Shown piece after piece: positions 9,075 to 32,545 of a stretch of 33,399 nt of DNA (the first letter of the stretch is position 1; every line of letters begins with the position of its first letter). The stretch is taken from NCBI GenBank assembly GCA_035541755.1, contig DATKMQ010000044.1:1-33399 (forward strand). Reading direction: 5' to 3'. The notes under the pieces are model-generated. The model saw only the letters and a program-made list of their open reading frames with translations, ran no database searches and was not told the DNA's origin. Made by a program: the position numbers and the translations under genes. This DNA is from Syntrophorhabdaceae bacterium. GTDB lineage: Bacteria; Desulfobacterota; Syntrophorhabdia; Syntrophorhabdales; Syntrophorhabdaceae.

Positions 9075-9110
9075 ACGGATGACCCTAACCACAACCGAGG
9101 TCAATGATCG

Positions 9111-10499
9111 ATGATGGAACAGAATTACCAACCTTTTGATTTTACCAACATACGTGATCTTCTTACGATCGTGTTTAAGCACAAGTACAAGATCTTCATT
9201 ACCTTTCTCGTGATCTTTATCGGGGTCACCGCTCTCGCCCTGATCATGCCGCGGCCGTATGAGTCGAAAAGCGTGTTGCTCGTAAAGCTTGGACGGGAGT
9301 TTATGAACCGCCCCGAAGTGAACGGAGGAAGCGGATTTTCCGTTCCACCGGACACAATCCTGAGAGGTGAGATCAGCATACTGACGAGCAGGGACCTCAT
9401 CAGTAAGGTCATCAATACCATCGGCGTTGAAAAACTCTATCCCACGACAAACAAGATCACCGCCGGTACGGAAACGCCGGAACAGAAGGCGATCAAGTCA
9501 TTTGAAGAGAACTTGAGCGTTACGAACGTCCCCGGCTCGAGCCTGATACAGGTTACCTTTACCCATTCCGACTCGTACCTGGCGCCCCGGGTGGTAAATA
9601 CGCTGGTCGACGCTTTCAAGGACAAGCACCTGGAAGTTTTCAGCGGGAACAGCACCGAGTTTCTGGAAAATCAACAGAAGGCCATCGAGGAGAAGCTCAA
9701 ACAATCGGAAGGCAATCTCGCCACATTCAAGCAGAAACACGGGGTCTTTTCCTTCGATGAACAAAAAACTGCACTGATACAACAACGGAGTATGCTCGAC
9801 ACGGCGCTCAAGGCCGCCCAAAACCAGATGACCGAAGTCGATCAAAAGATCGCCTTCATACGAAGCCCCAAATGGATGGCCGATACCCCCCAGGAGATGC
9901 GATCACAACTGGCCGCCCTTCAGCAGAGAGAGAGGGAGCTTTCTGAGAGATACACGGACAATAGCCGGGCAATCCAGAACGTGCGTCAGGAAATCCAACT
10001 GACAAAGGATGCCATGGGCAGAAACAACGAAGAATTGAGACAGATAGAACTCGGGAAGGCTGAAGGAGACCTGGCCGTGGTCAAAGCTAAGGTCGAAAAT
10101 CTGAAACGTCAGTTTTCTCAGGTAGAGGGTGAGGTTTTTGCCCTCGATGCGCGTGGGCGCGAGTTACAAGATTTGAAACGTGAGGCGACACAGCAGGAAC
10201 AAAGCTACGATACCTATGCACGAAAGCTTCAGGAGTCCCTCATTATGGACGACATGGACCGGCATAAGATGGTCGCCATCAGTGTGGTCGAAAAAGCAAC
10301 CATTCCTGCAACGCCAAAGAAACAGAAACTCGACAAACACCGGATGGTAGCAGCAGGGTTCCTGGGCGGTATTGCGGCGGGTTTTGCCCTCGCATTTTTC
10401 CTTGAATTCAGCGCTTCAGGCATGACAACACCCTATAGCGCTGAACGACGCCTGGGCCTGCCCGTAATGGTTGCGATCGCAAAAAAACAGAGCATTTAA
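9111..10499 (+). CDS. Wzz-type chain-length determinant / co-polymerase
   Basis: 462 residues, starting at ATG 9111 or the adjacent ATG 9114. The Wzz domain is at the N-terminus with a first transmembrane helix at about residues 27-47. A periplasmic region contains a long coiled coil (about 185-385, rich in Q, E, K and heptads), then a second transmembrane helix near residues 408-430 (VAAGFLGGIAAGFALAFFLEF) and a short cytoplasmic tail. No kinase domain is fused. The kinase-like partner is a separate gene at 12311. The layout matches the GNVR/Wzz proteins of EPS loci that set chain length and couple the inner-membrane machinery to the Wza channel. It lies 36 bases after the export lipoprotein gene. 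Confidence 0.9.
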   Translation: MMEQNYQPFDFTNIRDLLTIVFKHKYKIFITFLVIFIGVTALALIMPRPYESKSVLLVKLGREFMNRPEVNGGSGFSVPPDTILRGEISILTSRDLISKVINTIGVEKLYPTTNKITAGTETPEQKAIKSFEENLSVTNVPGSSLIQVTFTHSDSYLAPRVVNTLVDAFKDKHLEVFSGNSTEFLENQQKAIEEKLKQSEGNLATFKQKHGVFSFDEQKTALIQQRSMLDTALKAAQNQMTEVDQKIAFIRSPKWMADTPQEMRSQLAALQQRERELSERYTDNSRAIQNVRQEIQLTKDAMGRNNEELRQIELGKAEGDLAVVKAKVENLKRQFSQVEGEVFALDARGRELQDLKREATQQEQSYDTYARKLQESLIMDDMDRHKMVAISVVEKATIPATPKKQKLDKHRMVAAGFLGGIAAGFALAFFLEFSASGMTTPYSAERRLGLPVMVAIAKKQSI

Positions 10500-10584
10500 C
10501 GCTGTATGGGACTTTGCAAAAGCTGCTTCAAGAGTGCAGGTTTCTTAATGAGCGTTCACATTCCTGCCGGGATATAAGTGAGCT

Positions 10585-11847
10585 ATGTATTTGAGTTTTT
10601 ACAACCTCAAGAAACAACCCTTTCACATCACTCCGGACCCGGAGTTCCTCTACTTAAGCCCGAGCCATAAAGAAGCTTTGGCCGCCATCATATATGGCAT
10701 AGAGCAGAGGAAGGGATTTATTGCCATCGTTGGTGCCGTTGGGGTCGGCAAGACAACGATCCTTCGATCATACCTGGAAAGTGCAGAGAGAAAACACCTC
10801 AAGATCATATACGTCTTCAATGCAAAGCTCACCTTCAACGAACTCCTCAAAACCATTTATCAGGAGCTCGGCCTTCCCGTGGAAAGTAATGACGTTCTGG
10901 AGATGGTCAACAAGCTGTACGAGGTCTTAATCGAAGAATACAAGAAAGATAATACGGTCATACTGATCATCGACGAAGCCCAGAATATGCCTGTGGATAC
11001 GCTTGAGAGCTTGCGCATGCTTTCGAACCTCGAGACGTCCAAAGACAAGTTGATTCAGATCGTGCTCGTCGGTCAACCCGAGTTCGAAGAGCAGCTCAAC
11101 TTGAACAGGTTAAGACAGCTAAAACAACGGCTTGCCATCCGATCGACGATTTTGCCTCTCACGCCGCACGAAAGCATCGAGTACATCCGGTTCAGACTGC
11201 AAAAGGCCGGCTCCAACCCAGGCTCGGTTTTCTCGCCAGGCGCCTTGAAGACGATTGTGCGAAGAGCCAAGGGGATTCCCAGGGTACTCAACATTCTCTG
11301 TGACAACGCCCTGATCACGGGGTTCGGTTACCGCAAAAAACCTGTTTCGCAGAAAATAACAAAAGAGATAATCCGGGACTTTGAAGGGCTCAAACAGTCC
11401 TCGACTGCTCGATGGTGGGTATCTGCGGTTTCGGCCATGATCTTATTATTTCTCGGCGGCACGGTTTGGCTTGCGCTCTATAAGGAAGCCGATTTCGATA
11501 AGATCTCTGTGATGCTATCGCGCGGGCACAGGCATCTGACTGATTCTGCGAGTCAGCCGGAACGGGTTGAGACCCCGGCCGCGCGCGATGATCACGATAC
11601 CCCGGCGCAGTCTTTGCCGCCCAAGGGGGAGACACCGCCCCCTGCCGTGAATGACGACCACAAGGCCGTCACCAAAACGGTGGTACGTGGCGACACCCTT
11701 TCCAAATTAGCACAGGAAGTGTACGGCAACTCAGATACAAAGGTTTTACAATTCATCCGTAAAAGCAATCCTCAGATTGCGGACCCGAATCTCATTCTGA
11801 GAGGCAGTACCATTACTTTTCCCACATCTCACAAACAAGAAGAGTAG
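10585..11847 (+). CDS. ExeA/GspA-like AAA+ ATPase with C-terminal LysM domain
   Basis: 420 residues. The N-terminal ATPase begins MYLSFYNLKKQPFHITPDP, the hallmark of ExeA-like secretion ATPases found in EPS/PEP-CTERM loci. Walker A is GAVGVGKT (50-57) and Walker B is VILIIDEAQN (Asp130, Glu131). A sensor-like Arg/Gln-rich segment follows. A transmembrane helix lies at about residues 274-295 (WWVSAVSAMILLFLGG), then a proline-rich periplasmic linker, then a LysM domain (about 365-415: VVRGDTLSKLAQEVYGNSD, ending with LRGSTITFP). So a cytoplasmic ATPase is tied to a glycan- or peptidoglycan-binding module across the membrane. It probably energises or positions the export complex at the cell wall. 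It is the last gene before the second promoter region. Confidence 0.9.
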   Translation: MYLSFYNLKKQPFHITPDPEFLYLSPSHKEALAAIIYGIEQRKGFIAIVGAVGVGKTTILRSYLESAERKHLKIIYVFNAKLTFNELLKTIYQELGLPVESNDVLEMVNKLYEVLIEEYKKDNTVILIIDEAQNMPVDTLESLRMLSNLETSKDKLIQIVLVGQPEFEEQLNLNRLRQLKQRLAIRSTILPLTPHESIEYIRFRLQKAGSNPGSVFSPGALKTIVRRAKGIPRVLNILCDNALITGFGYRKKPVSQKITKEIIRDFEGLKQSSTARWWVSAVSAMILLFLGGTVWLALYKEADFDKISVMLSRGHRHLTDSASQPERVETPAARDDHDTPAQSLPPKGETPPPAVNDDHKAVTKTVVRGDTLSKLAQEVYGNSDTKVLQFIRKSNPQIADPNLILRGSTITFPTSHKQEE

Positions 11848-12026
11848 CAGAGCATTAGTAGTAGTCGGATCGCCCTGGATTTGGCTATCTTTATACTACG
11901 AATTACATAGATTTTCTAGGTAGTAATTGGGTGATTTTATGATCTTTATTCCGCGGTGGCGGCGTGCGAGATTGTCTTGTGTCGCAAAAGAATGTCTCAT
12001 CACGTAAGATTATGTATCGCCAAATA

Positions 12027-12052
12027 TGTAGCCTTACCCACAAAAAATGTAG
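12027..12052 (+). promoter_or_regulatory. Upstream activator element 2 (TGTAG-N6-CCACA-N5-TGTAG)
   Basis: TGTAG (12027-12031), CCACA (12038-12042) and TGTAG (12048-12052) have the same order and spacings as the element at 7072-7097. The second half shares the 13-base stretch CAAAAAATGTAGT with the first site. It ends 74 bases before the sigma-54 promoter, against 75 bases in the other copy. Confidence 0.6.
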
Positions 12053-12125
12053 TATTTTGCTGGAGATAATTGAGTCGTTGTAATACAGGTCAAATATTTC
12101 AATATGTTACGATTCTATGTTACTG

Positions 12126-12141
12126 TGGCACATAAGTTGCT
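12126..12141 (+). promoter_or_regulatory. Sigma-54 (RpoN) promoter 2
   Basis: TGGCACATAAGTTGCT fits TGGCAYRNNNNTTGCW at all defined positions. The expected start, about 12 bases after the GC, gives a leader of roughly 155 bases before the gene at 12311. It would drive the kinase-like protein and the long gene run after it. Confidence 0.75.
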
Positions 12142-12212
12142 AATTGATGCTGAGGAGTAGCAGAAGGAAACGGTTACGCGAGAAATCTTCGGGTAGCCGG
12201 CAACACAGGGGA

Positions 12213-12314
12213 ATGTGTTGGTACATCAACAAAGAGAACATGAAAGCTCTTCAGACCATCCATATAAAGAAATGGAACGGCGGTAGCGTGACCGCCGGCT
12301 GGAGGTTAAGGTGA
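12213..12314 (+). CDS. Possible 33-residue leader peptide overlapping the kinase-like gene
   Basis: The ATG at 12213 follows AGGGGA and opens 33 codons (MCWYINKENMKALQTIH, then a basic end WRLR). Its TGA overlaps the GTG start at 12311. The overlap suggests translational coupling, and the frame covers the hairpin at 12278-12297, so translation would melt that hairpin. The ribosome binding site is unusually close to the ATG and no family is known. Confidence 0.3.
   Translation: MCWYINKENMKALQTIHIKKWNGGSVTAGWRLR
12278..12297 (+). promoter_or_regulatory. Hairpin directly upstream of the kinase-like gene
   Basis: CGGCGGT (12278-12284), loop AGCGTG, ACCGCCG (12291-12297): a perfect 7-base-pair GC-rich stem ending three bases before the GGAGG ribosome binding site. 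No U-tract follows, so it is not a terminator. It may modulate translation or RNA stability. Confidence 0.4.
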
Positions 12315-13069
12315 GTAAGATCTTCGAGGCTATCGAGAATGCCCGCAGGGGAGAATCGGCGCCGGATAAACCTGAGTCCCGTGCCCCTTCCGTCTCGCTG
12401 CCCGTGTCTCGTCAACCCGGCAGGGTCGACGTTGACATGGAATCGGAAATGATTTCTCTGTATCAAACGATTACTGCAGCACTCCCCGGGATCAATCATC
12501 GCTCAGTCCTCTTTGTGGGGTCAAGATCGAATGAAGGCACCTCCACAGTCGCGCGGGAACTGGCCAAGGCCGCCTCTCTACGGATGGAAAAAAACGTTCT
12601 TCTCATAGACCTCGATAGAAGTAGACCGGAACACCACATATACACAAAGGTAAGCCGGAGAAACGGCGACGAAGATGTACCGGAAGACAAGGAAAAAGCC
12701 GCAGATCCGATGGAAGACTCCTTGTGCCAGGTCGAGGAGAGTAGCCTTTATGTAATGCCACTCTTCCAGAAGACCATGGTTACACCGCGCACCCTTGATT
12801 CAGCCAAGGGCCAGGGATTTTGGGAACCCTTGAAGGAAAGGTTTGATCTCATCATTGTGGATTCTCCGCCAACCATGATGTTTCCCGACGGGCCCGCTGT
12901 TGCTTCCCAGGTAGATGGCGTAATCCTCGTTGTTGAAGCGGAGAAAACCCGCTGGCAGGTGGCCTTAAGCGTGAAAGAAAAGATAGAGAAAAGCGGCGGG
13001 GTTGTACTGGGCATTGTTTTCAATAAAAGGAAATACTACATACCGCAGTTCATTTACAAGCATCTGTAG
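12311..13069 (+). CDS. BY-kinase-like (CpsD/CapB type) protein with altered P-loop
   Basis: 252 residues from GTG with GGAGGTT upstream. The N-terminus MSKIFEAIENA is typical of the separate tyrosine autokinases in EPS/PEP-CTERM loci. The nucleotide site shows GSRSNEGTST at residues 70-79, where most family members have EGKST, so the P-loop lysine is replaced by Thr77. Walker A-prime (VLLIDLDRSRP, 96-106) and the Walker B segment (FDLIIVDSPP) are kept. The C-terminus has a small tyrosine cluster (KRKYYIPQFIY) that would be the phosphorylation target. It would partner the Wzz protein at 9111. The lysine loss raises the possibility of a weak or inactive kinase acting as a scaffold. Confidence 0.8.
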   Translation: MSKIFEAIENARRGESAPDKPESRAPSVSLPVSRQPGRVDVDMESEMISLYQTITAALPGINHRSVLFVGSRSNEGTSTVARELAKAASLRMEKNVLLIDLDRSRPEHHIYTKVSRRNGDEDVPEDKEKAADPMEDSLCQVEESSLYVMPLFQKTMVTPRTLDSAKGQGFWEPLKERFDLIIVDSPPTMMFPDGPAVASQVDGVILVVEAEKTRWQVALSVKEKIEKSGGVVLGIVFNKRKYYIPQFIYKHL

Positions 13070-13090
13070 AGGAGAGAGCCGTAAAATTCT

Positions 13091-14617
13091 ATGGATAAGA
13101 AAAGAAAATGGAGAGAACAGAATCCTGACCTCTCTTACCCCCCGGTAAACGAGATAGCGTCTCATCACGGGGGTGACCTCGCGTCAGAATCGCCATTTGT
13201 CATCTCCATCTCCAGGAAAGATGATACGACGAGGAACACCGGCGGGGTCTCCGTAGGGTTCCCCCGGTTCCGCTGGCTCCTCTTTATGGGCGATCTTCTG
13301 CTCGTCATGTTCGCCAACTTCTTGAGCACCTGGATCCGGTTCGGTATGCCGTTGAACACCCTCAAGGAGTATACCGTGGCCTCGTTCATTACCATCGTGA
13401 TCTATCCGGTTACCCTCTACATCTTCGATCTCTACAATGTAGAACGTTCGTTCCGTTCCTGGGAGATGGCTTACCGGAGCGCTTTTGCCGTAACCGCCGG
13501 CGGTCTTGTGGCCATGATCGCCTTCTATCTCGTACCTTATGGCCCATACGGACGGGGTATTATGGCCATCGAGGTACTCCTTGTCTGGGGGCTTTTCAAT
13601 ATCTGGCGGTTTCTCTACGGTCTTATCTTCCAGAAGACTGCCCCTAGGGTACCCGCTTTGATCGTGGGTGCAGGTGCCTGCGGCAGGGCCATCTATGAGG
13701 TGCTCAAGTCCCCGCTCTCTCCCTATGAGATCAGGGGGTTCTTAGACGATGATCCGGCGCAGCTCGGTAAGAGCAGATCACCGACCATCATGGGTAGCTC
13801 CCGGCAGATTACAGAGATCGCGAGAAAGGTGGGGGTCCATACGGCGATCCTTGCTATCCCCAAGAACAGATCCGCTTCTCTCATACGGAACATCCTTGAC
13901 GCCCGTCTTCAGGGCATCAATATCCGGGACATGGCCGATGTATACGAAGAGTTGACCGGACGGATTCCGGTGCGTAACATCGGCGACCAGTGGCTCCTCT
14001 TCGCAGAAGGCTTCTATCTGCTCCACAAGGAGTATATCCAGAAGTTCAAGCGTCTTATGGATCTTATCACCTCGGGGTTGTTCCTTCTCTTTATCGCCCC
14101 CCTCATGGGGCTTATCGCGCTTGCGGTCAAGCTTGATTCCCCGGGCCCTGTGCTCTACAGCCAGCGCAGGATGGGTAAAGGACAGCAGATCTTTACGATC
14201 TACAAGTTCAGGTCCATGCGCCATGATGCAGAGACCGAAGGCGTCCGCTGGGCACAGGAGAAAGACCCGAGGGTGACTAAAATCGGGAGGTTCTTACGAC
14301 TCACCCACATGGATGAGATCCCCCAGATATGGAACATATTCAAGGGCGACATGAGTCTTGTGGGGCCGAGGCCTGAACGGCCGGAATTTGTCGCGCTTCT
14401 CGAAAAGGAAGTGCCCTACTACTTCGCCCGCCACTCAGTAAAGCCCGGTATGACCGGATGGGCCCAGATAAACTACCAGTACGGTGCGTCTATTGAAGAC
14501 GCGAAAAACAAGCTTGAGTACGATATTTACTACGTGAAGAACATGTCCCTCATGCTCGATTTCAAGATTCTTCTTCGCACTATAGGCGTGGTCCTCTTGA
14601 GCGACGGGGCTCGGTAG
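13091..14617 (+). CDS. Polyprenyl glycosylphosphotransferase (initiating sugar transferase)
   Basis: 508 residues. After a soluble 55-residue start there are about four membrane helices (for example GDLLLVMFANFLSTW and SFITIVIYPVTLYIF). A CoA-binding-like Rossmann region follows (PALIVGAGACGRAIYEVL), then another hydrophobic segment (LITSGLFLLFIAPLMGLIALA) and the catalytic bacterial sugar-transferase domain. Signature segments are KLDSPGPVLYSQRRMG, FTIYKFRSM, DEIPQIWNIFKGDMSLVGPRPE and the ending YDIYYVKNMSLMLD. The family (WcaJ/WbaP/PglC type) transfers a sugar phosphate from a nucleotide sugar to undecaprenyl phosphate, starting repeat-unit assembly at the inner membrane. It lies 21 bases after the kinase-like gene. 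The length is normal and all key motifs are intact. Confidence 0.93.
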   Translation: MDKKRKWREQNPDLSYPPVNEIASHHGGDLASESPFVISISRKDDTTRNTGGVSVGFPRFRWLLFMGDLLLVMFANFLSTWIRFGMPLNTLKEYTVASFITIVIYPVTLYIFDLYNVERSFRSWEMAYRSAFAVTAGGLVAMIAFYLVPYGPYGRGIMAIEVLLVWGLFNIWRFLYGLIFQKTAPRVPALIVGAGACGRAIYEVLKSPLSPYEIRGFLDDDPAQLGKSRSPTIMGSSRQITEIARKVGVHTAILAIPKNRSASLIRNILDARLQGINIRDMADVYEELTGRIPVRNIGDQWLLFAEGFYLLHKEYIQKFKRLMDLITSGLFLLFIAPLMGLIALAVKLDSPGPVLYSQRRMGKGQQIFTIYKFRSMRHDAETEGVRWAQEKDPRVTKIGRFLRLTHMDEIPQIWNIFKGDMSLVGPRPERPEFVALLEKEVPYYFARHSVKPGMTGWAQINYQYGASIEDAKNKLEYDIYYVKNMSLMLDFKILLRTIGVVLLSDGAR

Positions 14618-14808: not shown

Positions 14809-15093
14809 ATGGAACAAAACATCAAGCAGCAGATAATCGATTTCATAACCACAAATTTCCTTTTCGATGATTCCCAGACCGTAATCGGGGAAAAAGACTC
14901 TCTCCTTGAAACCGGCGTCATCGATTCTACCGGTGTGCTTGAATTGATCGCCTTTATTGAAGAAACTTACGGAATCAAAGTGGATGACGAGGAAATCACA
15001 CCGGAGAATCTGGACACCATACTCGACATCACCTACTTCATTCAACAGAAATTGACCCAGAGCTCCGTAAGATCGAGTTCATCGGGGCTGTAA
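14809..15093 (+). CDS. Acyl carrier protein
   Basis: 94 residues from the ATG at 14809, preferred over a TTG at 14794 because AGGAGCAGG precedes it. This is a typical four-helix carrier protein. Ser40 in ETGVIDSTGVLELIAF is the phosphopantetheine attachment site, and the acidic helix 2 is present (IEETYGIKVDDEEITPENL). It is clearly not the fatty-acid ACP of the cell by context: it sits inside an EPS locus and is followed by an asparagine synthase-like protein, a PP-loop enzyme and an AMP-forming acyl ligase. It probably carries an acyl or aminoacyl group destined for the polysaccharide. The serine-rich tail is disordered. Confidence 0.9.
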   Translation: MEQNIKQQIIDFITTNFLFDDSQTVIGEKDSLLETGVIDSTGVLELIAFIEETYGIKVDDEEITPENLDTILDITYFIQQKLTQSSVRSSSSGL

Positions 15094-15161
15094 CGTTCGC
15101 ACCGGATTAAGCGAATCGAACCCGGACAGTCCCCTAATCCAATAAATTAAACAACTTTAGC

Positions 15162-17147
15162 ATGTGTGGAATAGCCGGCACAATTGATTTTAGCGGTAAG
15201 GCGCCTGATGACGGCCTTCTTCGCCGTATGCTCGGCCTTATACGTCACCGCGGGCCCGATGCTTTCGGCATCTACATGGATGACACCGCCGCGCTCGCCT
15301 CGACGCGTCTCAGCATCATCGACTTGCCCGGGGGCGATCAACCGATCCATAATGAGGATCAAACGCTTTGGATCGTTTACAACGGGGAAGTCTTTAACTA
15401 CGTAGAGCTGAGGCCTGACCTGGAGGCCCGCGGCCACCGATTTTATACCAATACCGACACTGAAGTCCTCGTGCATCTTTACGAAGAAGAGGGTCCCGAC
15501 ATGCTCAGGCTTTTGAACGGTCAGTTCGGCCTTGCCCTGTGGGATGCGAAGAAGAGAGAGTTGTTTCTGGCCCGGGATCGCATGGGTATCAGGCCACTCT
15601 TCTATAAACGGGACGGAAGCCGCATTCTCTTTGCCTCCGAGATCAAAGCAATCTTTGCCGACCCTAAGATCGAGAAAAGCCTTGACCTTCAAACGCTTTC
15701 CGACATCTTTACCTGCTGGAGCCCGTTAAATGGTCAAACTGCGTTCCAAGGGGTCCATCAGCTCATGCCCGCCCATTATGCCGTCATCAACAGCACGGGG
15801 ACAAAGATTCATCGCTACTGGCAGATCCCCTACGGACAAGAGTACGATCGGGGCCGCAGCTTGAGCGAGTGGAGGGACGAACTCAACGATCTTGTTCGGG
15901 ACGCCTGTCGTATCAGGCTCAGGGCCGACGTGCCTGTCGGGGCCTATCTGAGCGGAGGTCTTGATAGCACTTACACTACCTCGATCGTAAAGCGGTTCTT
16001 CAATAATCAGCTCTGTACCTTCTCGGTCAGCTTCACGGATAATCGTTTCGACGAAGCCGCTTTCCAGATGAGGGCTGTTGAGTCCCTTGGCACCGATCAT
16101 CGAATGATCCGGTTGAGCGATAGAGATATCGGCGATGTTTTTCCCGACGTGATCTGGCACGCCGAGACTCCCTTGCTACGGACCGCGCCCGCGCCTCTGT
16201 TCCAGCTCTCCAAGCTTGTTCGTGAAAACAACTTTAAGGTGGTCTTGACCGGTGAAGGGTCAGACGAGATCTTTGCAGGCTACGACATCTTCAAAGAGGA
16301 CAGGATAAGACGCTTTTGGGCCGAGGAGCCGGAATCGAAACTACGTCCCAAGCTCTTGAGAAAATTATATCCTGACATCTTTTCGCATGCCGATTCGCGG
16401 GCAACAATCTTTCTGGAGAACTTCTTCAAAAAAGGGCTGTCCCGGGTGGAATTACCGTTCTATTCGCATATGATCAGATGGGAAAATACGGCGCTTATCA
16501 AGGGCTTCTTTTCAGACGAACTCAAAGCCAACACGGGAGAGGCGGACGGTTTCACGGGCCGATTCGCATCGCAGCTTCCCGCAGACTATTATAATTGGGA
16601 CCCCCTGTCCAGAGCCCAGTATACAGAGAGTGTTATCTTTCTCTCAAACTATCTTCTGTCTTCTCAGGGAGACCGTATGGCCATGGCTCATGCCGTGGAA
16701 GGTCGTTTCCCTTTTCTTGATTACCGGGTTGTGGAATTTGCTTCCCGCGTCCCGCCCACTTTGCGGCTTCGCGGACTGAGAGACAAGTTCATCTTGCGGG
16801 ACGCCGCCACGGATCTCATCCCGAAGGAATTGGCATACAGGCAGAAACAGCCGTACAGGGCGCCGATCAGTCGGTGTTTCTTCGGCGGGACGCCGCCCGA
16901 GTACGTGAGCGAGCTTCTCTCGGTGGAAAGCCTGCGCCGGAAGGGATACTTCCATCCGGGCAAAGTCACCAAACTCGTGGAGAAAATTACGCGTCAGGAA
17001 GGGCAGCTCCTAAGCGAGCGAGAAAATATGGCGCTTATCGGCGTTCTCTCGACTCAGCTCGCGGATGAAGCTTTTATAAGTAACTTTCCCTATCACGCTA
17101 TCGTTGAACCTGAGAACGTTAAGATATATGACTTTAGACGGAAATAG
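15162..17147 (+). CDS. Asparagine synthase (glutamine-hydrolysing)-like amidotransferase
   Basis: 661 residues. Cys2 after the initiator Met (MCGIAG) is the Ntn glutaminase nucleophile, and the class-II glutaminase domain spans residues 1-215 with RHRGPD, NGEVFNY and the FLARDRMGIRPLFY segment. The synthetase domain has the PP-loop SGGLDS at 264-269 and a GEGSDEIFAGY motif. EPS loci often contain such proteins, where they are thought to amidate a sugar acid or acyl group and not to make free asparagine. No Shine-Dalgarno sequence is visible before the ATG, which is unusual for this window. It is only distantly similar to the second copy at 32546. The substrate is not deducible. Confidence 0.88.
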   Translation: MCGIAGTIDFSGKAPDDGLLRRMLGLIRHRGPDAFGIYMDDTAALASTRLSIIDLPGGDQPIHNEDQTLWIVYNGEVFNYVELRPDLEARGHRFYTNTDTEVLVHLYEEEGPDMLRLLNGQFGLALWDAKKRELFLARDRMGIRPLFYKRDGSRILFASEIKAIFADPKIEKSLDLQTLSDIFTCWSPLNGQTAFQGVHQLMPAHYAVINSTGTKIHRYWQIPYGQEYDRGRSLSEWRDELNDLVRDACRIRLRADVPVGAYLSGGLDSTYTTSIVKRFFNNQLCTFSVSFTDNRFDEAAFQMRAVESLGTDHRMIRLSDRDIGDVFPDVIWHAETPLLRTAPAPLFQLSKLVRENNFKVVLTGEGSDEIFAGYDIFKEDRIRRFWAEEPESKLRPKLLRKLYPDIFSHADSRATIFLENFFKKGLSRVELPFYSHMIRWENTALIKGFFSDELKANTGEADGFTGRFASQLPADYYNWDPLSRAQYTESVIFLSNYLLSSQGDRMAMAHAVEGRFPFLDYRVVEFASRVPPTLRLRGLRDKFILRDAATDLIPKELAYRQKQPYRAPISRCFFGGTPPEYVSELLSVESLRRKGYFHPGKVTKLVEKITRQEGQLLSERENMALIGVLSTQLADEAFISNFPYHAIVEPENVKIYDFRRK

Positions 17148-17240
17148 CCACGAATTCACAGCGGCAGGGCCGTTATGGTTCCCAAGCTTTACCCGCGTCG
17201 TGATCGTTTGCTTTCCGTCATGGTAAACTGAGGTAACCTT

Positions 17241-18278
17241 ATGAAGCAAGATCAAGTAAGTAAGTCGATTGAACCTCGTATCTGCTCGCACTGTATTCTA
17301 CCGGAGACTTTTCCGAATATCAGATTCGATGCAGAAGGTGTATGCAATCATTGTCTTCAGGAAAAGTCCATGCTGGCCAAGCGAGACGCCAAGACACTCG
17401 AGTACCGGGAAAAGCTCGACGATCTTATAGCGTCAACCAAGGGTACCGGCCCCTGTTACGATGCCATCATGGCGTACAGCGGCGGTAAAGATTCTTCGTA
17501 CACGCTCAAGCTTCTTCGCGAACGGTACGATCTCAAAGTGCTCGCCCTTACCTTCGACAATCATTTTGTCTCACCCACTGCCCTGGAAAACATCAGAAAG
17601 GTCACCGATAGTCTTCAAGTAGACCATATTCATTTCAAGGCGCCGTGGGCCGCTATGAAATCGCTCTTTTCTCTCACAGCGTCCGCTGATATCTTTTCCG
17701 CGGCCACCCTGCTCAGGGCAAGTTCCATTTGTACGGCCTGCATCGGGATCGTCAAAAGTCTCACCCTGAAGACGGCTATCGAAATGGCAATCCCCCTGTC
17801 TGCTTTCGGCTGGTCACCGGGACAGGCCCCCATCCAGTCGGCCATAATGAGGACCAACGCATCTCTCATTCGGCAGAATCAGAGGGCTCTGCTCAGTGGT
17901 TTTCCAACCGATGTTCAGGTTCAGATGAGTTCCTACTTCATCCCTGAAAGTTACTATCAATCATATGCCGGCCGTTTTCCCACCAACATACACCCATTGG
18001 CGTTCTTCGAATATGATGAACAAAAGATCACGGATGAGCTCAAACAGATCGGGTGGATCCTGCCGACCAACACGGACACGAACTCAACCAACTGTCTTCT
18101 CAATGCCTTTGCAAATCAGGTTCATCTGGAACGTCACAAGTTTCATCCATACGTCTGGGAGATAGCCAATATGGTGCGTCAGGGCGTCATGACCCGTGAA
18201 GAAGGCATGGAAAAGATATATTCACCGCAGAACGCCGAACAGGTAGCCTACGCCAGGAGTATGCTCGGATTAGATTAA
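17241..18278 (+). CDS. PP-loop N-acetyl sugar amidotransferase-like protein (WbpG type)
   Basis: 345 residues with GAGGTAA before the ATG. The N-terminal zinc-binding pair CSHC (15-18) and CNHC (35-38), then the PP-loop MAYSGGKDSS (SGGKDS, 80-85), are the signature of WbpG-like N-acetyl sugar amidotransferases. A third cysteine pair (CTAC) follows near residue 163. In Pseudomonas O-antigen synthesis WbpG turns an acetamido group into an acetamidino group using ammonia from a HisH/HisF-type partner. No HisH- or HisF-like gene lies in the window; the neighbouring asparagine synthase-like protein might supply ammonia, which is inference. It adenylates its substrate with ATP. Confidence 0.8.
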   Translation: MKQDQVSKSIEPRICSHCILPETFPNIRFDAEGVCNHCLQEKSMLAKRDAKTLEYREKLDDLIASTKGTGPCYDAIMAYSGGKDSSYTLKLLRERYDLKVLALTFDNHFVSPTALENIRKVTDSLQVDHIHFKAPWAAMKSLFSLTASADIFSAATLLRASSICTACIGIVKSLTLKTAIEMAIPLSAFGWSPGQAPIQSAIMRTNASLIRQNQRALLSGFPTDVQVQMSSYFIPESYYQSYAGRFPTNIHPLAFFEYDEQKITDELKQIGWILPTNTDTNSTNCLLNAFANQVHLERHKFHPYVWEIANMVRQGVMTREEGMEKIYSPQNAEQVAYARSMLGLD

Positions 18279-18301
18279 GAAGTCTCATAAAGAGCCGTAT
18301 C

Positions 18302-19906
18302 ATGGTCCCGATAATTCCCCTAAATCCCGATATAACACTTGTCCATCATTTCCTCGAGAAGAGCGCGGAGCGCTTTCCCGGTAAAACAGCTATCGTACAC
18401 GGTCCGACCCGCGTTACATATGCTGAGTTAAATAATCGGGCGAGTGCCCTGGCAGATTATCTCTTGACCATCGGCCTAAAACCCGGTGACCGCGTGGCCT
18501 TGCTCATGGAAAATAGTCTTGAATACGTTATCGGTTATTACGGAGCGCTCAAGGCCTCCGCGGTGGCAGTACCTTTAAACAGCGACTTGAAGGCCGAAGG
18601 ATTGCGCTATGCCATAGAGGATTTAGAGGCCGGAATAATGGTGTCTTCGTCGAAGTTTGAGAAGCTCATAGCTGCCTCAAACCTGGAGGGCCTGGGACTG
18701 AAGCACCTCATTCTCAAGGGACGTTCCGTATCGGCAGGCATTCGCACAACCACGGTCAATTTCGACGACGTCACCCCCTCTTCCTTTACCAGTACAGTGC
18801 GTTGCGAGATAACTTCCCGCGACCTCGCGAGCATCATCTATACGTCAGGATCGACCGGTGGCCCAAAGGGGGTGATGCTTTCACATCAGAACATCGTGGA
18901 CAACACCTTCTCGATCTGCCAGTATCTCGGCCTCACGAGTGACGATGTGCAGATGATTGTGCTACCGTTCTTTTATGTCATGGGAAAATCGCTGCTCAAT
19001 ACCCATTTTGCAGTCGGCGGTACGGTCATCCTCAACAACCAGTTCGCCTTTCCGGCCACTGTCATTAAAGAAATGATCGCGGAGAAGGTCACCGGTTTTT
19101 CCGGGGTTCCTTCTACCTTTGCGTACCTCGTGCATCGATCTCCGCTTGCCGCTAATCGGGAGAAACTTCCCTGTCTCCGTTATGTGAGCCAGGCCGGCGG
19201 GCACATGGCAAAAGCCGTCAAAGAAGAGCTCCGTCGGGTACTTCCGGCGCACACCCAAATAGTCATCATGTACGGTGCGACCGAAGCTGCGGCCAGGCTT
19301 TCCTACCTCGAAGCTCCGCGTTTTGCGGACAAAACGGAATCCATTGGAAAGGCCATACCCGGCGTCACATTGAAGGTAGTGAACCAGGACGGGCGGGACG
19401 CAGACATCGGTCAAGTCGGCGAACTCGTTGCCACGGGGACCAACATCATGCAAGGTTATTGGAAAAATCCCGAAGCCACTGCAAAGGTCCTTACAGATGG
19501 CTGGTATCACACGGGTGATCAGGCGTATATGGATGAAGAGGGCTTTTTCTTTGTTGTGGGACGCAAGGACGACCTTTTGAAGGTAGGCGGCCACAGGCTC
19601 AATCCACAGGAAATAGAAGATATATTGCTCGAGTCGGGTATGTTTGTTGAGGCGGTAGTGCTTGGCCAACCGGATGAACTGCTGGGGATGCGTCTTGTTA
19701 CCCTCGCCGTTCCGAAAAGCGACGAGTGCACCTCTCAAAAGGTGATGAACTTCTGCGCAGAGAGGCTGCCCAAATACAAGATACCGAGCGAGGTGCAATT
19801 CACTAAGAATCTGCCAAAGAAGACAAGCGGCAAGGTTGATCGAAAAAGTTGCCTTGCTTTGTTCAGTCAGTGTCAACCGAATTCACAGCATGCCGCAGAA
19901 AAATAA
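18302..19906 (+). CDS. AMP-forming acyl-CoA/acyl-ACP ligase
   Basis: 534 residues. This is an ANL-superfamily enzyme with all core motifs: the P-loop IIYTSGSTGGPKGVML (near 178-193), YGATEAA, GWYHTGDQAYMDEEGFFFVVGRKDD, GGHRLNPQEIE and the catalytic Lys511 in TSGKVDR. It activates a carboxylic acid as an acyl-adenylate and passes it to CoA or to a carrier protein. The ACP gene at 14809 is the obvious acceptor. It resembles the acyl-CoA ligases that accompany exosortase A-type EPS loci, which are usually paired with a PLP-dependent decarboxylase; none is seen here. The start is 23 bases after the PP-loop gene. The substrate is unknown. Confidence 0.9.
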   Translation: MVPIIPLNPDITLVHHFLEKSAERFPGKTAIVHGPTRVTYAELNNRASALADYLLTIGLKPGDRVALLMENSLEYVIGYYGALKASAVAVPLNSDLKAEGLRYAIEDLEAGIMVSSSKFEKLIAASNLEGLGLKHLILKGRSVSAGIRTTTVNFDDVTPSSFTSTVRCEITSRDLASIIYTSGSTGGPKGVMLSHQNIVDNTFSICQYLGLTSDDVQMIVLPFFYVMGKSLLNTHFAVGGTVILNNQFAFPATVIKEMIAEKVTGFSGVPSTFAYLVHRSPLAANREKLPCLRYVSQAGGHMAKAVKEELRRVLPAHTQIVIMYGATEAAARLSYLEAPRFADKTESIGKAIPGVTLKVVNQDGRDADIGQVGELVATGTNIMQGYWKNPEATAKVLTDGWYHTGDQAYMDEEGFFFVVGRKDDLLKVGGHRLNPQEIEDILLESGMFVEAVVLGQPDELLGMRLVTLAVPKSDECTSQKVMNFCAERLPKYKIPSEVQFTKNLPKKTSGKVDRKSCLALFSQCQPNSQHAAEK

Positions 19907-19919
19907 ACAGAGCGTGTCT

Positions 19920-20786
19920 ATGAAGAGAGAAATACCCCGGAGTGGCAGCCTTACAAACAGTCTCCTACCGCTCTTCACGGTTCTCACTCTCCTCATAACT
20001 CTTACGGCGTGCTCGGGAGGAAAAATGGAACCGAACACAATAACCCCGCCGTCGATCGCGGATGTACCGCCCGAATCATGGCTCAAGCTTTCCGGGAAAA
20101 GGATCTATTTCGGCCATCAATCAGTGGGCTTCAACATCCTGGAAGGCATGAAAGACCTGATGAAAGAAAATCCCCGGATTAAGTTGAACATCGTAGAGAC
20201 GACCGATCCCGCTGCCTTCGATGTACCTATTTTCGCCCACTCGACAGTAGGCCAGAACGGCAGCCCTCAATCCAAATGCAATGACTTTGCCAGATTTATG
20301 GATGCAGGAATAGCCGAGAAGATCGATATAGCCCTGTTTAAATTCTGTTACGTGGATTTTGATTCCGACACCGACGTGACAAAGGTTTTTGAGAATTATA
20401 AGAACACCCTGTCGTCGCTTCGCGCACGCCATAAGAAGGTTATCTTTGTCCACCTCACTACTCCCCTCACCACCGTTCAATCAGGGTTCAAGGCCTTAAT
20501 CAAGAAGGCTATCGGCAAGACGGTTACGGGCTATGCCGAGAATATCAAGCGGGAGCAGTTTAACGAGATGCTGCGAAAAGAATATCAGGGGAAAGAGCCG
20601 ATTTTAGATGTGGCTGCCATCGAATCGGTTCTTCCGGACGGTTCGCAATCGGCTTTTGAAAAGGACGGCAAAATGAACCGTTGCCTTGCCCCGATTTTTT
20701 CTGCTGACGGAGGGCATCTCAACAAGGTGGGCAGTCAGAGAGTGGCAGCGCAGCTTCTCGTGTTGCTCGCCAACGTGTCGGGATAG
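19920..20786 (+). CDS. SGNH-hydrolase-like lipoprotein
   Basis: 288 residues from the ATG at 19920, preferred because it gives a clean lipoprotein signal (MKREIPRSGS, hydrophobic core, LTAC with Cys31). In-frame starts at 19890 or 19836 would add a non-signal extension overlapping the ligase gene. The mature domain has GHQSVG near residue 65-70 and a closing D-x-x-H dyad (Asp263, His266 in SADGGHLNKVG), the arrangement of SGNH/GDSL esterases and of some O-acetyl transfer partners. A catalytic serine is not certain. The expected location is the periplasmic face of a membrane, where it could add or remove ester groups on the nascent polysaccharide. Confidence 0.7.
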   Translation: MKREIPRSGSLTNSLLPLFTVLTLLITLTACSGGKMEPNTITPPSIADVPPESWLKLSGKRIYFGHQSVGFNILEGMKDLMKENPRIKLNIVETTDPAAFDVPIFAHSTVGQNGSPQSKCNDFARFMDAGIAEKIDIALFKFCYVDFDSDTDVTKVFENYKNTLSSLRARHKKVIFVHLTTPLTTVQSGFKALIKKAIGKTVTGYAENIKREQFNEMLRKEYQGKEPILDVAAIESVLPDGSQSAFEKDGKMNRCLAPIFSADGGHLNKVGSQRVAAQLLVLLANVSG

Positions 20787-20838: not shown

Positions 20839-21894
20839 ATGGGCTATCAGATAATACCGATGGACCTCGAGCAACATCGTCAAGCCCTGCTTGCGCTCTG
20901 GAGAGAGGGGTTGGAGGAGTGCACCGACGAGCGCTTTGATTGGCTTTACACGAGAAACCCGTCGGGCGTGACTAGAACCTATCTCGCCCTTGATGAAAAG
21001 TCGCGCAGCATAGTAGGTTGTGCCTCCCTTGTTCCGAGGCATATCAATATGGCAGGGAACGATGTTGTGATGGGCGTGGCTGCAGACTTTATCATCACTG
21101 CCCGTCACAGGGCGTTTGGCCCTGCCCTTAAACTGCAGAGGGAACTCTTTGCAAAACAGAAGGAGCACGGTTTTTGTGCTATCCTGGCCTTTCCTAATGC
21201 ATCAGCAGAGGGCGTTTTCAGCCGCACCGGTTACAAACCGCTGGGCAAGGCTATCCGTTATGTGAGGCTCATAAAGGCCGAGATAAAACTGAGAGAAACG
21301 GTCAAAAATAGAATGCTCGCGAAGATCCTCGGTTTCGTACTCGACAACGTTTGGTCTATCATGAGTCTCGATATAAGGAGGATCTTGACGGCCAATACCT
21401 ATACGTTTGAAACGGTTGACAATTGCGATAGTCGGTTTGACACCCTCTGGGACAAGGCAAAGCAGGGGTATCCGATTACCGGCGAGAAAGTCTCTTCATA
21501 TCTGAACTGGCGATACCCCGGCGATCCTTCCCGTCGCCATCGGTTCTTCTGTATCCTTTCCAGGACGGGAGAATTGCTCGGATATCTGGTCTACATCGTA
21601 AGAGAGGGCGTTGCAATGGTAGGCGATCTTTTTTTTGTGACTTCCGACGAACAGATATCCCGCCGCCTTCTCACGGGATTCGTCAAAGAGATGAAAGCAC
21701 AGGGTGCCCACTCCGTTACCCTGACCTATCTCGGATCCGGAGCACTTGCTGAAAATCTGAGAAAGGCCGGATTCTTCCCACGAAAGGAACAGGAGAGGAC
21801 GGTCTTTCTCGGACAGAACGTGACTGGCGGGGAGGTAGGCCTTGAGCGAAACGGTGCGGATTGGTGCCTGCTCGACGACGAGCTCGATCTATAG
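20839..21894 (+). CDS. GNAT-type acyltransferase
   Basis: 351 residues. The first half has the GNAT pattern: an N-terminal strand, VGCASLVPRHINMAGNDVVMGVAADFIITARHRAFGPALKLQ with the acetyl-CoA-binding R-x-x-G/A-like loop (RHRAFGPA), then NASAEGVFSRTGYKP. The second half (from about residue 200) looks like a repeat of a GNAT-like fold (YLNWRYPGDPSRRHRFF, then LGYLVYIVREGVAMVGDLFF). Such double GNAT proteins occur in EPS loci and are thought to acylate an amino sugar or a lipid-linked intermediate. No signal peptide is present, so it is cytoplasmic. It could act on the product of the ACP/ligase cassette upstream. The donor and acceptor are unknown. Confidence 0.75.
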   Translation: MGYQIIPMDLEQHRQALLALWREGLEECTDERFDWLYTRNPSGVTRTYLALDEKSRSIVGCASLVPRHINMAGNDVVMGVAADFIITARHRAFGPALKLQRELFAKQKEHGFCAILAFPNASAEGVFSRTGYKPLGKAIRYVRLIKAEIKLRETVKNRMLAKILGFVLDNVWSIMSLDIRRILTANTYTFETVDNCDSRFDTLWDKAKQGYPITGEKVSSYLNWRYPGDPSRRHRFFCILSRTGELLGYLVYIVREGVAMVGDLFFVTSDEQISRRLLTGFVKEMKAQGAHSVTLTYLGSGALAENLRKAGFFPRKEQERTVFLGQNVTGGEVGLERNGADWCLLDDELDL

Positions 21895-22021
21895 TTACCA
21901 TGTGATGGCTCAAGCCGTGTTCAGACCTCTCGCGACCGATCCAGCCGAAACTTGAGAAGTGCCCCGGTTGATGATAGTGCAAAGATGTTTTGAGGCATGT
22001 TGAACGGTGAATGGAAAAATA

Positions 22022-23089
22022 ATGGATAGGAAACTCAAAATTGGCTTGATAGGGTGCGGGCAGATAGCCGACGCACATCTTTTGGAACTCGGATTTCTTA
22101 AAGATGTGAGGGTGGTCGGGGTCTGCGATCTCGTCGAGTTCTTAGCCCAGGATACGGCGGAACGATTTCATGCCGAGAAGGCCTATACAGATTACCGTAA
22201 GATGATAGAAGAAATGAAACCGGATGTGGTTCACATCACGACCCCGGCGCAAACCCACTTTTCTATCGGAACGGATGTGTTGAAGGCAGGGTGTCACGCC
22301 TACATTGAAAAGCCTTTTGGAATCGATTATCAGGAGGCTTTGGGTATTATAGAACAAGCGAAAGAGAGTGACAGGATCGTCTGTGCGGGATTCAGTCAGT
22401 GGTTTGATAAGGTTACGTCCAGGCTACGGCATAGTCTCGAACATAACGATCTGGGAGAGGTGGTCCATGCAGAATCTTACTACGGAAACGCTATAGACGG
22501 CAGCTTTTCGAAATTATTCCTGCAAAACAAGACCCACTGGGTGCATAAGCTCCCCGGCAAGATGATCCAGAACATCATAAGCCATCCGCTATATCACTTG
22601 ATACCTCTTTTGGGCGGCCCCGTGGATGAGGTTTCCTGCGTGGCGCTCGACAGGTCAAGAAACGGCGTTTTCAATGATGAGCTACGGATCATCATGAGAT
22701 CGGAACGAACGACCGGGACTCTGACCATCACCTCGAACGTAAAACCGATCATCCAATTTGTTCGAGTTTACGGCACCAGGGCCGTGGCCGAGATCGATCT
22801 CGCAAATCACCTCTTTTCGATGGTAAAATCCACAAACCTTCCGGGACCTGCGGCCCGACTGAACAGGGCTTTTGGAGCGGCAAGGCATTTGATGGGGCAA
22901 GGTCTAGGCAACCTTACGGACATGATAAAAGGAAGAGACAGATACTTTGCCGGACTCGGAGGCCTCTTTCATAATTTCTATGAAAATATCAGGAACGGCT
23001 CGGGTAAGCCTCCTATCCCTTATGAGGTGGTATTAGAGGTCTCAAGGGTAACGAATCTCGTTAACGAGCAAATTAGAGAGCGGACGTAA
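22022..23089 (+). CDS. Gfo/Idh/MocA-family NAD(P)-dependent oxidoreductase
   Basis: 355 residues from the ATG at 22022; a GTG at 22007 is in frame but has no better ribosome binding site. The Rossmann motif is IGLIGCGQIADAH (7-19), and the family signature EKPFG lies at Glu96, Lys97 and Pro98. The C-terminal alpha/beta domain extends to the end. Family members oxidise or reduce sugar carbonyls, for instance the C3 oxidation of UDP-GlcNAcA before transamination. With an epimerase-like gene directly downstream and an amidotransferase upstream, it probably takes part in making a modified uronic acid or amino sugar. The exact substrate cannot be read. Confidence 0.88.
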   Translation: MDRKLKIGLIGCGQIADAHLLELGFLKDVRVVGVCDLVEFLAQDTAERFHAEKAYTDYRKMIEEMKPDVVHITTPAQTHFSIGTDVLKAGCHAYIEKPFGIDYQEALGIIEQAKESDRIVCAGFSQWFDKVTSRLRHSLEHNDLGEVVHAESYYGNAIDGSFSKLFLQNKTHWVHKLPGKMIQNIISHPLYHLIPLLGGPVDEVSCVALDRSRNGVFNDELRIIMRSERTTGTLTITSNVKPIIQFVRVYGTRAVAEIDLANHLFSMVKSTNLPGPAARLNRAFGAARHLMGQGLGNLTDMIKGRDRYFAGLGGLFHNFYENIRNGSGKPPIPYEVVLEVSRVTNLVNEQIRERT

Positions 23090-23099
23090 CGCGAAACGG

Positions 23100-24098
23100 G
23101 TGAAGAGAGTGAAAGCAATGGTAACAGGAGCTTTAGGGTACATAGGCCAGGGGGTGGTCCGCTCCCTCCACAGGCGGGATATCGAGGTGTTCGCCGTGGT
23201 AAGGACGGGAAGCGATATCACCCCGATTCGCGATTCAGTCAAAGAAGTAATCTTCTGGGACCTGGCAAGTGAGGGCAGTCCGGAAGCAATCCCGGAAGAC
23301 ATAGGGTGTATCTATCATCTGGCCGCGGCCACACAGGGTAGCCACTTTGAAATGATGATGAACACAGTCGTAGCCACAGACAACCTGATGCGGGCGCTCG
23401 CCGATAAGAAGGTGGGGCGATTCGTCCTGGTGAGTAGTTTCAGCGTATACAAGATGACGAGCCTCAAGAGAGGAAGCGTCCTGGACGAGACATGTCCTAT
23501 CGAGGATCGCCTCGTGGCCAGGGACTCCTATTCGAACACCAAGGTTCGCCAGGAAGCCCTGGTTAAGAAGATATGCGCGCAAAGAGGTCTCCCGCTCGTG
23601 ATCGTCCGTCCCGGAAAGATTTACGGTCCCACAACTTATCCCATACCCCCTCAGATGGGCCTTAATATCCCCGGTATCTGTTATCTGTACATCGGGGGGA
23701 GGAGCGTTCTCCCGCTGACTCACGTTGCTAACTGCGCTGAAGCCATTGTGCTTGCGGGTCTTGCTAAAGGCATAGAAGGCGACACCTTTAATATCGTTGA
23801 CGACGACCTTCCTACACAGGGTCAATTCGTGCGTCTGTATCGGAGGCACCTCGGGAGCTTTCCCACGAGGATATGGGTACCGTATGGCATGTTCAGGCTC
23901 ATGGCCCTGATATATGAGTATGTGTCACGCAAGACCAAAGGAAACCTTCCGCCGCTCATCTCCCGCTACCGTGCTGACAATCTCTGGAAAAGTTTGAAAT
24001 ACACGAATCGAAATGCCAAGGAAAAACTGCACTGGGCGCCGCAAAAAGCCACCGGAGAAGGTCTCGTAGAGATGTTTGAAAGCGTCCGGGACAAGTAA
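23100..24098 (+). CDS. NAD-dependent epimerase/dehydratase (extended SDR)
   Basis: 332 residues from GTG at 23100, ten bases after the previous stop; ATG at 23118 is an alternative but would trim the first strand. The nucleotide motif is TGALGYIGQG (9-18), the catalytic YxxxK is Tyr144 and Lys148 (SYSNTK), and VLVSSFSVY supplies the conserved serine. The conserved RPGKIYGP follows. Members epimerise, dehydrate or reduce nucleotide sugars, and this one would prepare a precursor in the cytoplasm. It sits between the oxidoreductase and the deacetylase in a nearly gap-free run. Confidence 0.88.
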   Translation: MKRVKAMVTGALGYIGQGVVRSLHRRDIEVFAVVRTGSDITPIRDSVKEVIFWDLASEGSPEAIPEDIGCIYHLAAATQGSHFEMMMNTVVATDNLMRALADKKVGRFVLVSSFSVYKMTSLKRGSVLDETCPIEDRLVARDSYSNTKVRQEALVKKICAQRGLPLVIVRPGKIYGPTTYPIPPQMGLNIPGICYLYIGGRSVLPLTHVANCAEAIVLAGLAKGIEGDTFNIVDDDLPTQGQFVRLYRRHLGSFPTRIWVPYGMFRLMALIYEYVSRKTKGNLPPLISRYRADNLWKSLKYTNRNAKEKLHWAPQKATGEGLVEMFESVRDK

Positions 24099-24132
24099 GC
24101 TATATGTTCGAGTGAAGTGGGAGAATCAATTC

Positions 24133-25209
24133 GTGAAGAGAAGAATACTCATTCGGCTCATCTGCTATTTCTTCTATTTTACTGGACTGCATATCGTATG
24201 GAGAATGATAAACGGGAGATTAGGGAGATACCCGATCATTATGTATCATAGTGTGAGCGGTGAAGGGTCAAGCGCACAGACGCCTTCATGTCTCGCGCTC
24301 CTCGGTATGACAGTTTCAAAAAAAAGGTTCGAGGAACAACTGGGATATGTTTCGAGGAATTATACGGTTATCGGTATGGAAAAGTTGATACGTTATTTGA
24401 AGAATGGCGGTCCCATGCCGGTAAACCCGCTCGTAATCACCTTTGATGATGGGTTCAGGGATAACTCCGTGGTGGCGTATCCTCTGCTCAAGAAAAGGGG
24501 CATGAAAGCGACATTCTTTATTCCCGGCGATCCCGTGAAAACCGGCGAGACGGTGTGGCTCCATATGCTTTACGGGCTGGTGGACAAACAAACTGAGAGG
24601 GAAATTCAGCATGCCGGCGCCTACCCTGACCGGCAATACGTGTGCCAAAAGAAGCAGGCGATGACATTGAGAATGAAAAAGGCAGTGGAAGGATGCTCCG
24701 CCGCGGCCAAAAAGGAGTACGTTCGTGGCTTCGCCAAAGAGCATGAGATAGAACTCAGGGAAGTCAAGACAGACATACCGTACATGAGTGCTCAGGAGAT
24801 AGAAGAATTGTGCACAGCCGGACATACCATAGGCGCTCACTCAATGACGCACGTGCGTCTGAGCGAGTTACCGCGGGACCAAAAAGAAATGGAGATCCGG
24901 GAATCAAAGGACATGGTGCATAAGATATGCGAGCAACAGTTTATCCCCTTTGCCTACCCGTTCGGGGATACAGGCTCTTTTGATGAGACCGATAAGGCAC
25001 TGTTAAAAGAGAACGATTTTGCCTGTGCGGTGACCACATCCGAAGGCCTGAACGGTCGCGCGACGGATGTCTACGAGTTAAGGAGAGTTGAAATAGGTGA
25101 TTTTGGCCGCATCGATTTTGCGGTACACCTAAGCGGTATTGTGGGCGATCTGAAGATGCTCGCAAAAAAGACAGTCAAAAAAGCAGGAGGTTTACGTAGC
25201 AACCCATGA
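24133..25209 (+). CDS. Polysaccharide deacetylase
   Basis: 358 residues from GTG at 24133, chosen for the GGGAGA eight bases before it and because the earlier frame would overlap the epimerase gene. The N-terminus has a short hydrophobic segment (LIRLICYFFYFTGLHIVW), likely a membrane anchor. NodB-fold motifs are present: TFDDGF (Asp105, Asp106), GAHSMTH with metal ligands His236 and His240, and FAYPFG. The insertion between the first and second motif is long (about 130 residues). It removes N- or O-acetyl groups from the polysaccharide or a precursor. EPS loci of the PEP-CTERM type commonly carry such an enzyme. It overlaps the next gene by ATGA. Confidence 0.88.
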   Translation: MKRRILIRLICYFFYFTGLHIVWRMINGRLGRYPIIMYHSVSGEGSSAQTPSCLALLGMTVSKKRFEEQLGYVSRNYTVIGMEKLIRYLKNGGPMPVNPLVITFDDGFRDNSVVAYPLLKKRGMKATFFIPGDPVKTGETVWLHMLYGLVDKQTEREIQHAGAYPDRQYVCQKKQAMTLRMKKAVEGCSAAAKKEYVRGFAKEHEIELREVKTDIPYMSAQEIEELCTAGHTIGAHSMTHVRLSELPRDQKEMEIRESKDMVHKICEQQFIPFAYPFGDTGSFDETDKALLKENDFACAVTTSEGLNGRATDVYELRRVEIGDFGRIDFAVHLSGIVGDLKMLAKKTVKKAGGLRSNP

Positions 25210-26024: not shown

Positions 26025-26060
26025 ACAGGGGCAGGTATCACTGAAACAGGGGCTAAAGGC

Positions 26061-28115: not shown

Positions 28116-28142
28116 GCAGCGTCGATTGACGGAGCTTTTCCG

Positions 28143-29579: not shown

Positions 29580-29580
29580 G

Positions 29581-30156: not shown

Positions 30157-30177
30157 CAAACGTGCTTTGACATAGCG

Positions 30178-32543: not shown

Positions 32544-32545
32544 TT

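Follow-up and report, generated by a model that had tools for sequence, protein, structure and literature searches.

What does an acyl carrier protein do beside two amidotransferase-like enzymes in a polysaccharide locus? Contig DATKMQ010000044.1 of a Syntrophorhabdaceae bacterium raises this question. The entire contig was analysed (33,399 bp, hereafter the window), and an XrtA-type exopolysaccharide (EPS) locus lies within it. In this locus, at 14809-19906, four consecutive genes encode an acyl carrier protein (ACP), an asparagine synthetase-like amidotransferase (AsnB), a PP-loop enzyme of the AANH type (PPL), and an AMP-forming acyl ligase. An earlier note on this DNA had described them as an activation, carrier, and amidation cassette inside EPS genes. 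That description stands: each of the four reading frames is uninterrupted and runs in the same direction, spacers of about 69, 94, and 24 bp separate them, the motifs are intact, and genes for EPS export, chain length, an XrtA-associated ATPase, a bacterial tyrosine (BY) kinase, and EpsB_2 precede them. With moderate confidence, we propose that the product of the cassette is an acyl group derived from a carboxamide, formed on the carrier protein and destined for an XrtA-type polysaccharide, whichever atom PPL adds.

A recurrent cassette distinct from the classical exosortase ligase set

A search of 99 relatives found full-length PPL relatives (47-64% identity) that belong to three further families, and in every case genes for ACP, ligase, and AsnB lie close by. 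When 395 genomes of the phylum were surveyed and genome contigs scanned, 112 PPL loci emerged, 98 of them distinct. Judged by record titles, mostly of metagenome bins, these span Desulfobacterota, Nitrospirota, Omnitrophota, Zixibacteria, Latescibacteria, Dehalococcoidia, and Spirochaetes. The four-gene pathway proposed in the earlier note is kept together in these relatives. Where at least 5 kb is available on each side (the full-context set, 42 distinct loci), a ligase gene accompanies PPL in 41, an ACP gene in 39, and an AsnB gene in 28. Gene order varies, and the strand is nearly always the same. This shared strand despite variable order speaks for a functional unit and not an inherited neighbourhood alone. 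The recurrence around 98 PPL genes from several phyla, in varied order, is not due to chance. Neither ACP nor ligase was found at the eight loci of other AANH/WbuX genes that served as controls, and a scan of viral contigs found no PPL relatives.

The ligase bears on a simpler explanation, namely ordinary fatty acylation by a fatty-acid CoA ligase and a fatty-acid ACP, with AsnB and PPL as unrelated neighbours. Its score with the long-chain ligases of PRK06187 (387 bits) is nearly equal to that with the exosortase A acyl ligase family TIGR03098 (391 bits), which is below the TIGR03098 cut-off of 592. The earlier note had named a grouping with ordinary fatty-acid CoA ligases as the result that would speak against its view. 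Instead, the window ligase and 51 other cassette ligases form one clade (Shimodaira-Hasegawa support 0.945), which holds no ordinary fatty-acid ligase among those compared, from three sampled genomes and E. coli. On this tree, the identity as an ordinary fatty-acid CoA ligase was rejected. The regular presence of both ACP and ligase beside PPL also argues against ordinary fatty acylation, as do the ACP scores, which stay below the cut-offs of fatty-acid ACP models. Ordinary fatty acylation is thus largely refuted, and we regard it as very improbable. The NCBIfam scores of the ACP, 48 bits for the AmcB ACP and 45 bits for the OlsHI ACP, are below cut-off. The serine of its DS motif (Ser40) is invariant in 89/89 aligned ACPs, and the ligase presumably loads this protein. 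Another 35 cassette ligases are placed in an adjacent clade, where they join three classical TIGR03098 proteins that exceed the cut-off.

The absence of a pyridoxal phosphate (PLP) decarboxylase, which the note had called usual beside exosortase ligases, is borne out by the wider sample. A homologue of the TIGR03099 decarboxylase is missing from the window and from all 98 cassette loci, whereas one adjoins each of the three classical exosortase ligases examined (L207, L208, and L209); the decarboxylase of L209 exceeds the TIGR03099 cut-off. No PPL match was found in the three genomes with classical TIGR03098 ligases. The cassette and the classical ligase-decarboxylase set both occur in XrtA-type EPS loci and have related AMP ligases, but they are distinct gene sets.

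Proposed chemistry and its closest parallels

The enzyme families suggest the following route. The ligase would adenylate a carboxylic acid that bears a second carboxylate (dicarboxylic-type) and load it onto the ACP, and AsnB, with glutamine, would convert the free carboxylate to a primary amide. PPL would then adenylate the amide oxygen with ATP and replace this oxygen, most likely with sulfur carried by a [4Fe-4S] cluster whose ligands would be C164, C167, and C285; the result would be a thioamide, as with CtaC. The main alternative at this step is nitrogen, giving an amidine. Finally, the tandem-GNAT protein encoded after the cassette would pass the acyl group on to an amino sugar. The neighbouring SGNH lipoprotein may act on the exported polymer by editing or acylation. 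For the PPL step, the thioamide is our leading, though tentative, guess; an amidine or a second amidation comes close behind it, and any other outcome appears improbable.

AsnB belongs to the glutamine-dependent asparagine synthetase family (TIGR01536, 491 bits against a cut-off of 267). It begins with MCGI and contains SGGLDS, and SGGxDS is present in 56/56 relatives. It is not a member of the TIGR03108 XrtA amidotransferase family (403 bits against a cut-off of 817). AsnB probably amidates a carboxylate; NadE, another carboxylate-to-amide enzyme, stands in for it in some loci. In seven loci (L095, L098, L164, L173, L177, L181, and L182), such an NAD-synthetase-like paralogue is found instead of AsnB, and 6/6 tested genomes of these loci encode a further NadE. 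The argument that NadE replaces AsnB because the two exclude each other is weakened by two facts: in family f34 the NadE gene, the sole NadE match found there, lies on the opposite strand, and cassettes with both AsnB and NadE, lacking PPL, exist. In one locus (L215), NadE accompanies ligase and ACP, and AsnB is missing.

Nine loci carry, inside the cassette, a paralogue of PrmC, a member of the Gln-N5 methyltransferase family that methylates amide nitrogen. A housekeeping PrmC copy is also present in 7/7 genomes tested, and the paralogue possibly N-methylates the carrier-bound amide. In L122, L144, L149, L152, L166, and L168, a second PrmC-like gene is located between the ligase and PPL genes. 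The cassette versions seen combine a ligase and an ACP with at least one ATP-dependent amide-forming enzyme. Taken together, the NadE and PrmC variants would point to amide chemistry on the carrier, and they fit sulfur as well as nitrogen addition by PPL. A link to oxygen was judged too weak: COX1 occurs in 9/31 PPL genomes versus 5/7 NadE-variant genomes without a cassette PPL (Fisher test, one-sided p 0.05, two-sided 0.08), a post hoc comparison that ignores relatedness.

The thioamide guess draws on a known enzyme. CtaC, the synthetase that installs the thioamides of closthioamide, accepts amides only when they are bound to a carrier, and it requires D77/S78 and C154/C157/C284 (PMC6772006). 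Set against these published positions, D84/S85 and C164/C167/C285 of PPL have similar spacing. Both are AANH enzymes with a carrier protein in the pathway, NRPS-linked (nonribosomal peptide synthetase-linked) relatives, and many anaerobes among their hosts. However, CtaC is encoded with ATP-grasp and transglutaminase genes, whereas the neighbours of PPL, within an EPS locus, are AsnB and an AMP ligase. The cysteine triad (CxxC...C) is invariant in the PPL of 98/98 distinct cassette loci and present in 6/7 more distant relatives, and it is absent from 4/5 WbuX-type proteins of the first comparison set. Furthermore, hhalign aligned the PPL profile with E. coli TtcA (E 1e-6), with SGGKDS and CxxC in register. 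PPL shares the PP-loop, a CxxC (by the TtcA profile), and a related fold with the [4Fe-4S] tRNA thiolases TtcA, TtuA, and NcsA, but it is distant in sequence overall, its third cysteine lies beyond the TtcA-aligned stretch, though invariant within the PPL family, and its context is a carrier protein and not tRNA.

Some PPL relatives are fused to or adjoin NRPS proteins; L101 and a Streptomyces plasmid also have AsnB alongside. A Roseovarius pelagicus plasmid (L028, 9415-17463) has a PPL-like domain within a large NRPS gene, whose neighbours are genes for a free-standing carrier protein and an adenylation enzyme as well as the EPS genes YjbF/YjbH. In the Streptomyces plasmid (L029, 11196-17118), the PPL-like domain belongs to a condensation-domain protein whose gene lies beside those for AsnB and an NRPS in an unassigned natural-product cluster.

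Sulfur or nitrogen, polymer or free metabolite

Several observations weigh against a thioamide route to a decorated polymer. The AlphaFold model of PPL (pLDDT 94) has the WbuX-type enzyme 8wex as its nearest solved fold (Z 24), and the thiolases TtuA and NcsA, together with LarE and NAD synthetases (NadE), follow at only Z ~11. The cysteine triad is present in the WbuX proteins of L036, L037, and L039, which are coupled to HisH and WbuZ/HisF. A sister cassette (L211, L213, and L217-L221) combines ligase and/or ACP with AsnB and a PRK00876-like NadE and has no PPL. On the polymer side, no EPS marker was seen in 12/42 full-context loci, and homologues of the GNAT protein occur in only 11/98 distinct loci.

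The points on PPL favour a reading in which it is a second nitrogen-transfer enzyme, so that ammonia displaces the amide oxygen to give an amidine or a second carboxylate is amidated. A zinc tetracysteine and a PP-loop are features of the WbuX-type family (PMC10607449), and PPL has both (C15, C18, C35, C38, and SGGKDS). The NadE that takes the place of PPL in the sister cassette is of the NH3 type, which suggests that PPL and NadE could perform similar amidating work. Since HisH/WbuZ-coupled WbuX proteins share the triad, the triad alone does not mean sulfur chemistry, and its use as proof of such chemistry was dropped. The triad-bearing WbuX proteins may form a subgroup of sugar amidotransferases with a metal cluster; near two of them (L036 and L037) lies a gene for a pseudaminic-type synthase.

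However, the score of PPL with the WbuX N-acetyl sugar amidotransferase (NASAT) family TIGR03573 is 144.5 bits, below the cut-off of 203, while a true WbuX (293 bits) is encoded on another contig of the same genome. The ammonia partners HisH/HisF are found at 0/98 PPL loci, whereas both are present at 6/10 control loci. Besides, AsnB retains its own synthetase site and is therefore not a spare glutaminase for PPL. A plain WbuX identity was rejected on the score and the missing partners. Fold, tetracysteine, PP-loop, polysaccharide context, and in some members the triad are common to PPL and WbuX; what sets PPL apart, even from triad-bearing WbuX, is the absence of HisH/HisF at every locus and the constant carrier protein, with a ligase as neighbour. 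We rank nitrogen transfer as a serious but second possibility after the thioamide. The 'two amidating enzymes' of the earlier note is too firm a wording: given the sub-cut-off WbuX score of PPL, the lack of HisH/HisF, and its TtcA/CtaC-like triad, insertion of sulfur is roughly as probable as amidation.

From the gene context, we infer that the product is attached to the polysaccharide. The cassette could otherwise make a free small molecule, a thioamide or amide metabolite or a chelator, its EPS location reflecting co-regulation. The loci without an EPS marker agree with this, as do the PPL relatives that occur with NRPS genes outside EPS loci and the fact that the product of CtaC is a free antibiotic. 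However, the majority of full-context loci are of the XrtA EPS type (any XrtA/EPS marker 30/42, TIGR03006 deacetylase 19/42, exosortase 16/42), neither a dedicated exporter nor an NRPS recurs with the cassette, and an N-acyltransferase fold is encoded after it in the window. Overall, we consider a free product unlikely.

That GNAT-like and SGNH genes follow the cassette, as the note had stated, is correct, with the SGNH lipoprotein first. The model of the GNAT protein (pLDDT 85.6) has a tandem-GNAT fold; its best Foldseek matches are tandem-GNAT Eis-like and N-myristoyltransferase structures at E ~1e-14 to 1e-12 (2i00 and 2hv2 ~1e-14, N-myristoyltransferases 1e-13). Within the full-context set, GNAT is present in 7/42 loci and SGNH in 9/42. 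FemAB-type proteins are encoded in 11/98 distinct loci, other than those with GNAT, and therefore the transferase may vary. Homologues of the SGNH lipoprotein occur in 15/98 distinct loci. Its label follows from a conserved Ser and DxxH in the alignment and from GDSL matches in 7/16 members, which are weak (1.7e-5 for the best); a profile search gave no convincing solved structure.

The complete picture, a carrier-protein thioamide pathway that decorates exopolysaccharide through an Fe-S AANH enzyme acting on ACP and transfer to amino sugars, is rather unlikely to hold in every part. We know of no polysaccharide with a thioamide-bearing acyl decoration, and a literature search on thioamide and exopolysaccharide found none.

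The locus in the window and its wider meaning

The features of the locus are collected below. Genes of the EPS and cassette stretch lie on the + strand throughout, with short gaps.

Features of the EPS and cassette stretch, in window coordinates
Feature	Position	Strand	Details
Upstream XrtA-type EPS machinery	8292..14617	+	export protein, chain-length determinant, XrtA-associated ATPase, BY-kinase, EpsB_2 glycosylphosphotransferase
ACP (acyl carrier protein)	14809..15093	+	phosphopantetheine Ser40, codon 14926-14928; NCBIfam ACP models below cut-off
AsnB, asparagine synthetase-like amidotransferase	15162..17147	+	N-terminal glutaminase (Cys2), SGGLDS synthetase site
PPL, PP-loop (AANH) enzyme	17241..18278	+	C15/C18/C35/C38 zinc-type tetracysteine; SGGKDS 17478-17495; C164xxC167 17730-17741; C285 18093-18095
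AMP-forming acyl ligase	18302..19906	+	PF00501 + PF13193
SGNH/GDSL-like lipoprotein	19920..20786 (ATG start)	+	lipobox LTAC, conserved Ser68, D263xxH266
Tandem-GNAT fold N-acyltransferase	20839..21894	+	predicted fold; candidate ACP-to-amine transferase
Downstream EPS genes	22007..33397	+	Gfo/Idh/MocA, SDR (short-chain dehydrogenase/reductase), deacetylase, methyltransferase, Wzx-like, serine-acetyltransferase-like, PEP_O_lig-like, glycosyltransferase, second (XrtA-type) AsnB

The second AsnB gene (32540-33397) is cut by the contig end, and for its length it matches TIGR03108 far better than the cassette AsnB does. Between the methyltransferase and flippase genes, a 684-aa protein (26061-28115) has no NCBIfam match. 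The exosortase of the genome sits on a different contig (L206, G000:C25:11899-12594). That contig has EPS-type genes of its own (L214), and therefore the genome possibly holds two XrtA-type loci. To the left of the EPS locus, genes for a tyrosine recombinase (5837-6826) and a small protein resembling helix-turn-helix regulators (HTH-like, 2721-3194) suggest a mobile element or an integration boundary.

Dozens of lineages from sediment and groundwater, most of them uncultured, carry the cassette, including Desulfobacterota, Nitrospirota, Omnitrophota, Zixibacteria, and others. Among cultured strains, PPL loci are present in Desulfocicer vacuolatum DSM 3385 and Geobacter sp. OR-1. This wide spread points to a common, uncharacterised chemical group on biofilm polymers. 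If the group is a thioamide or an amidine, it may confer metal binding or a change of charge, which would be relevant to sulfidic, metal-rich habitats. Furthermore, PPL offers a tractable case for how PP-loop enzymes select nitrogen versus sulfur.

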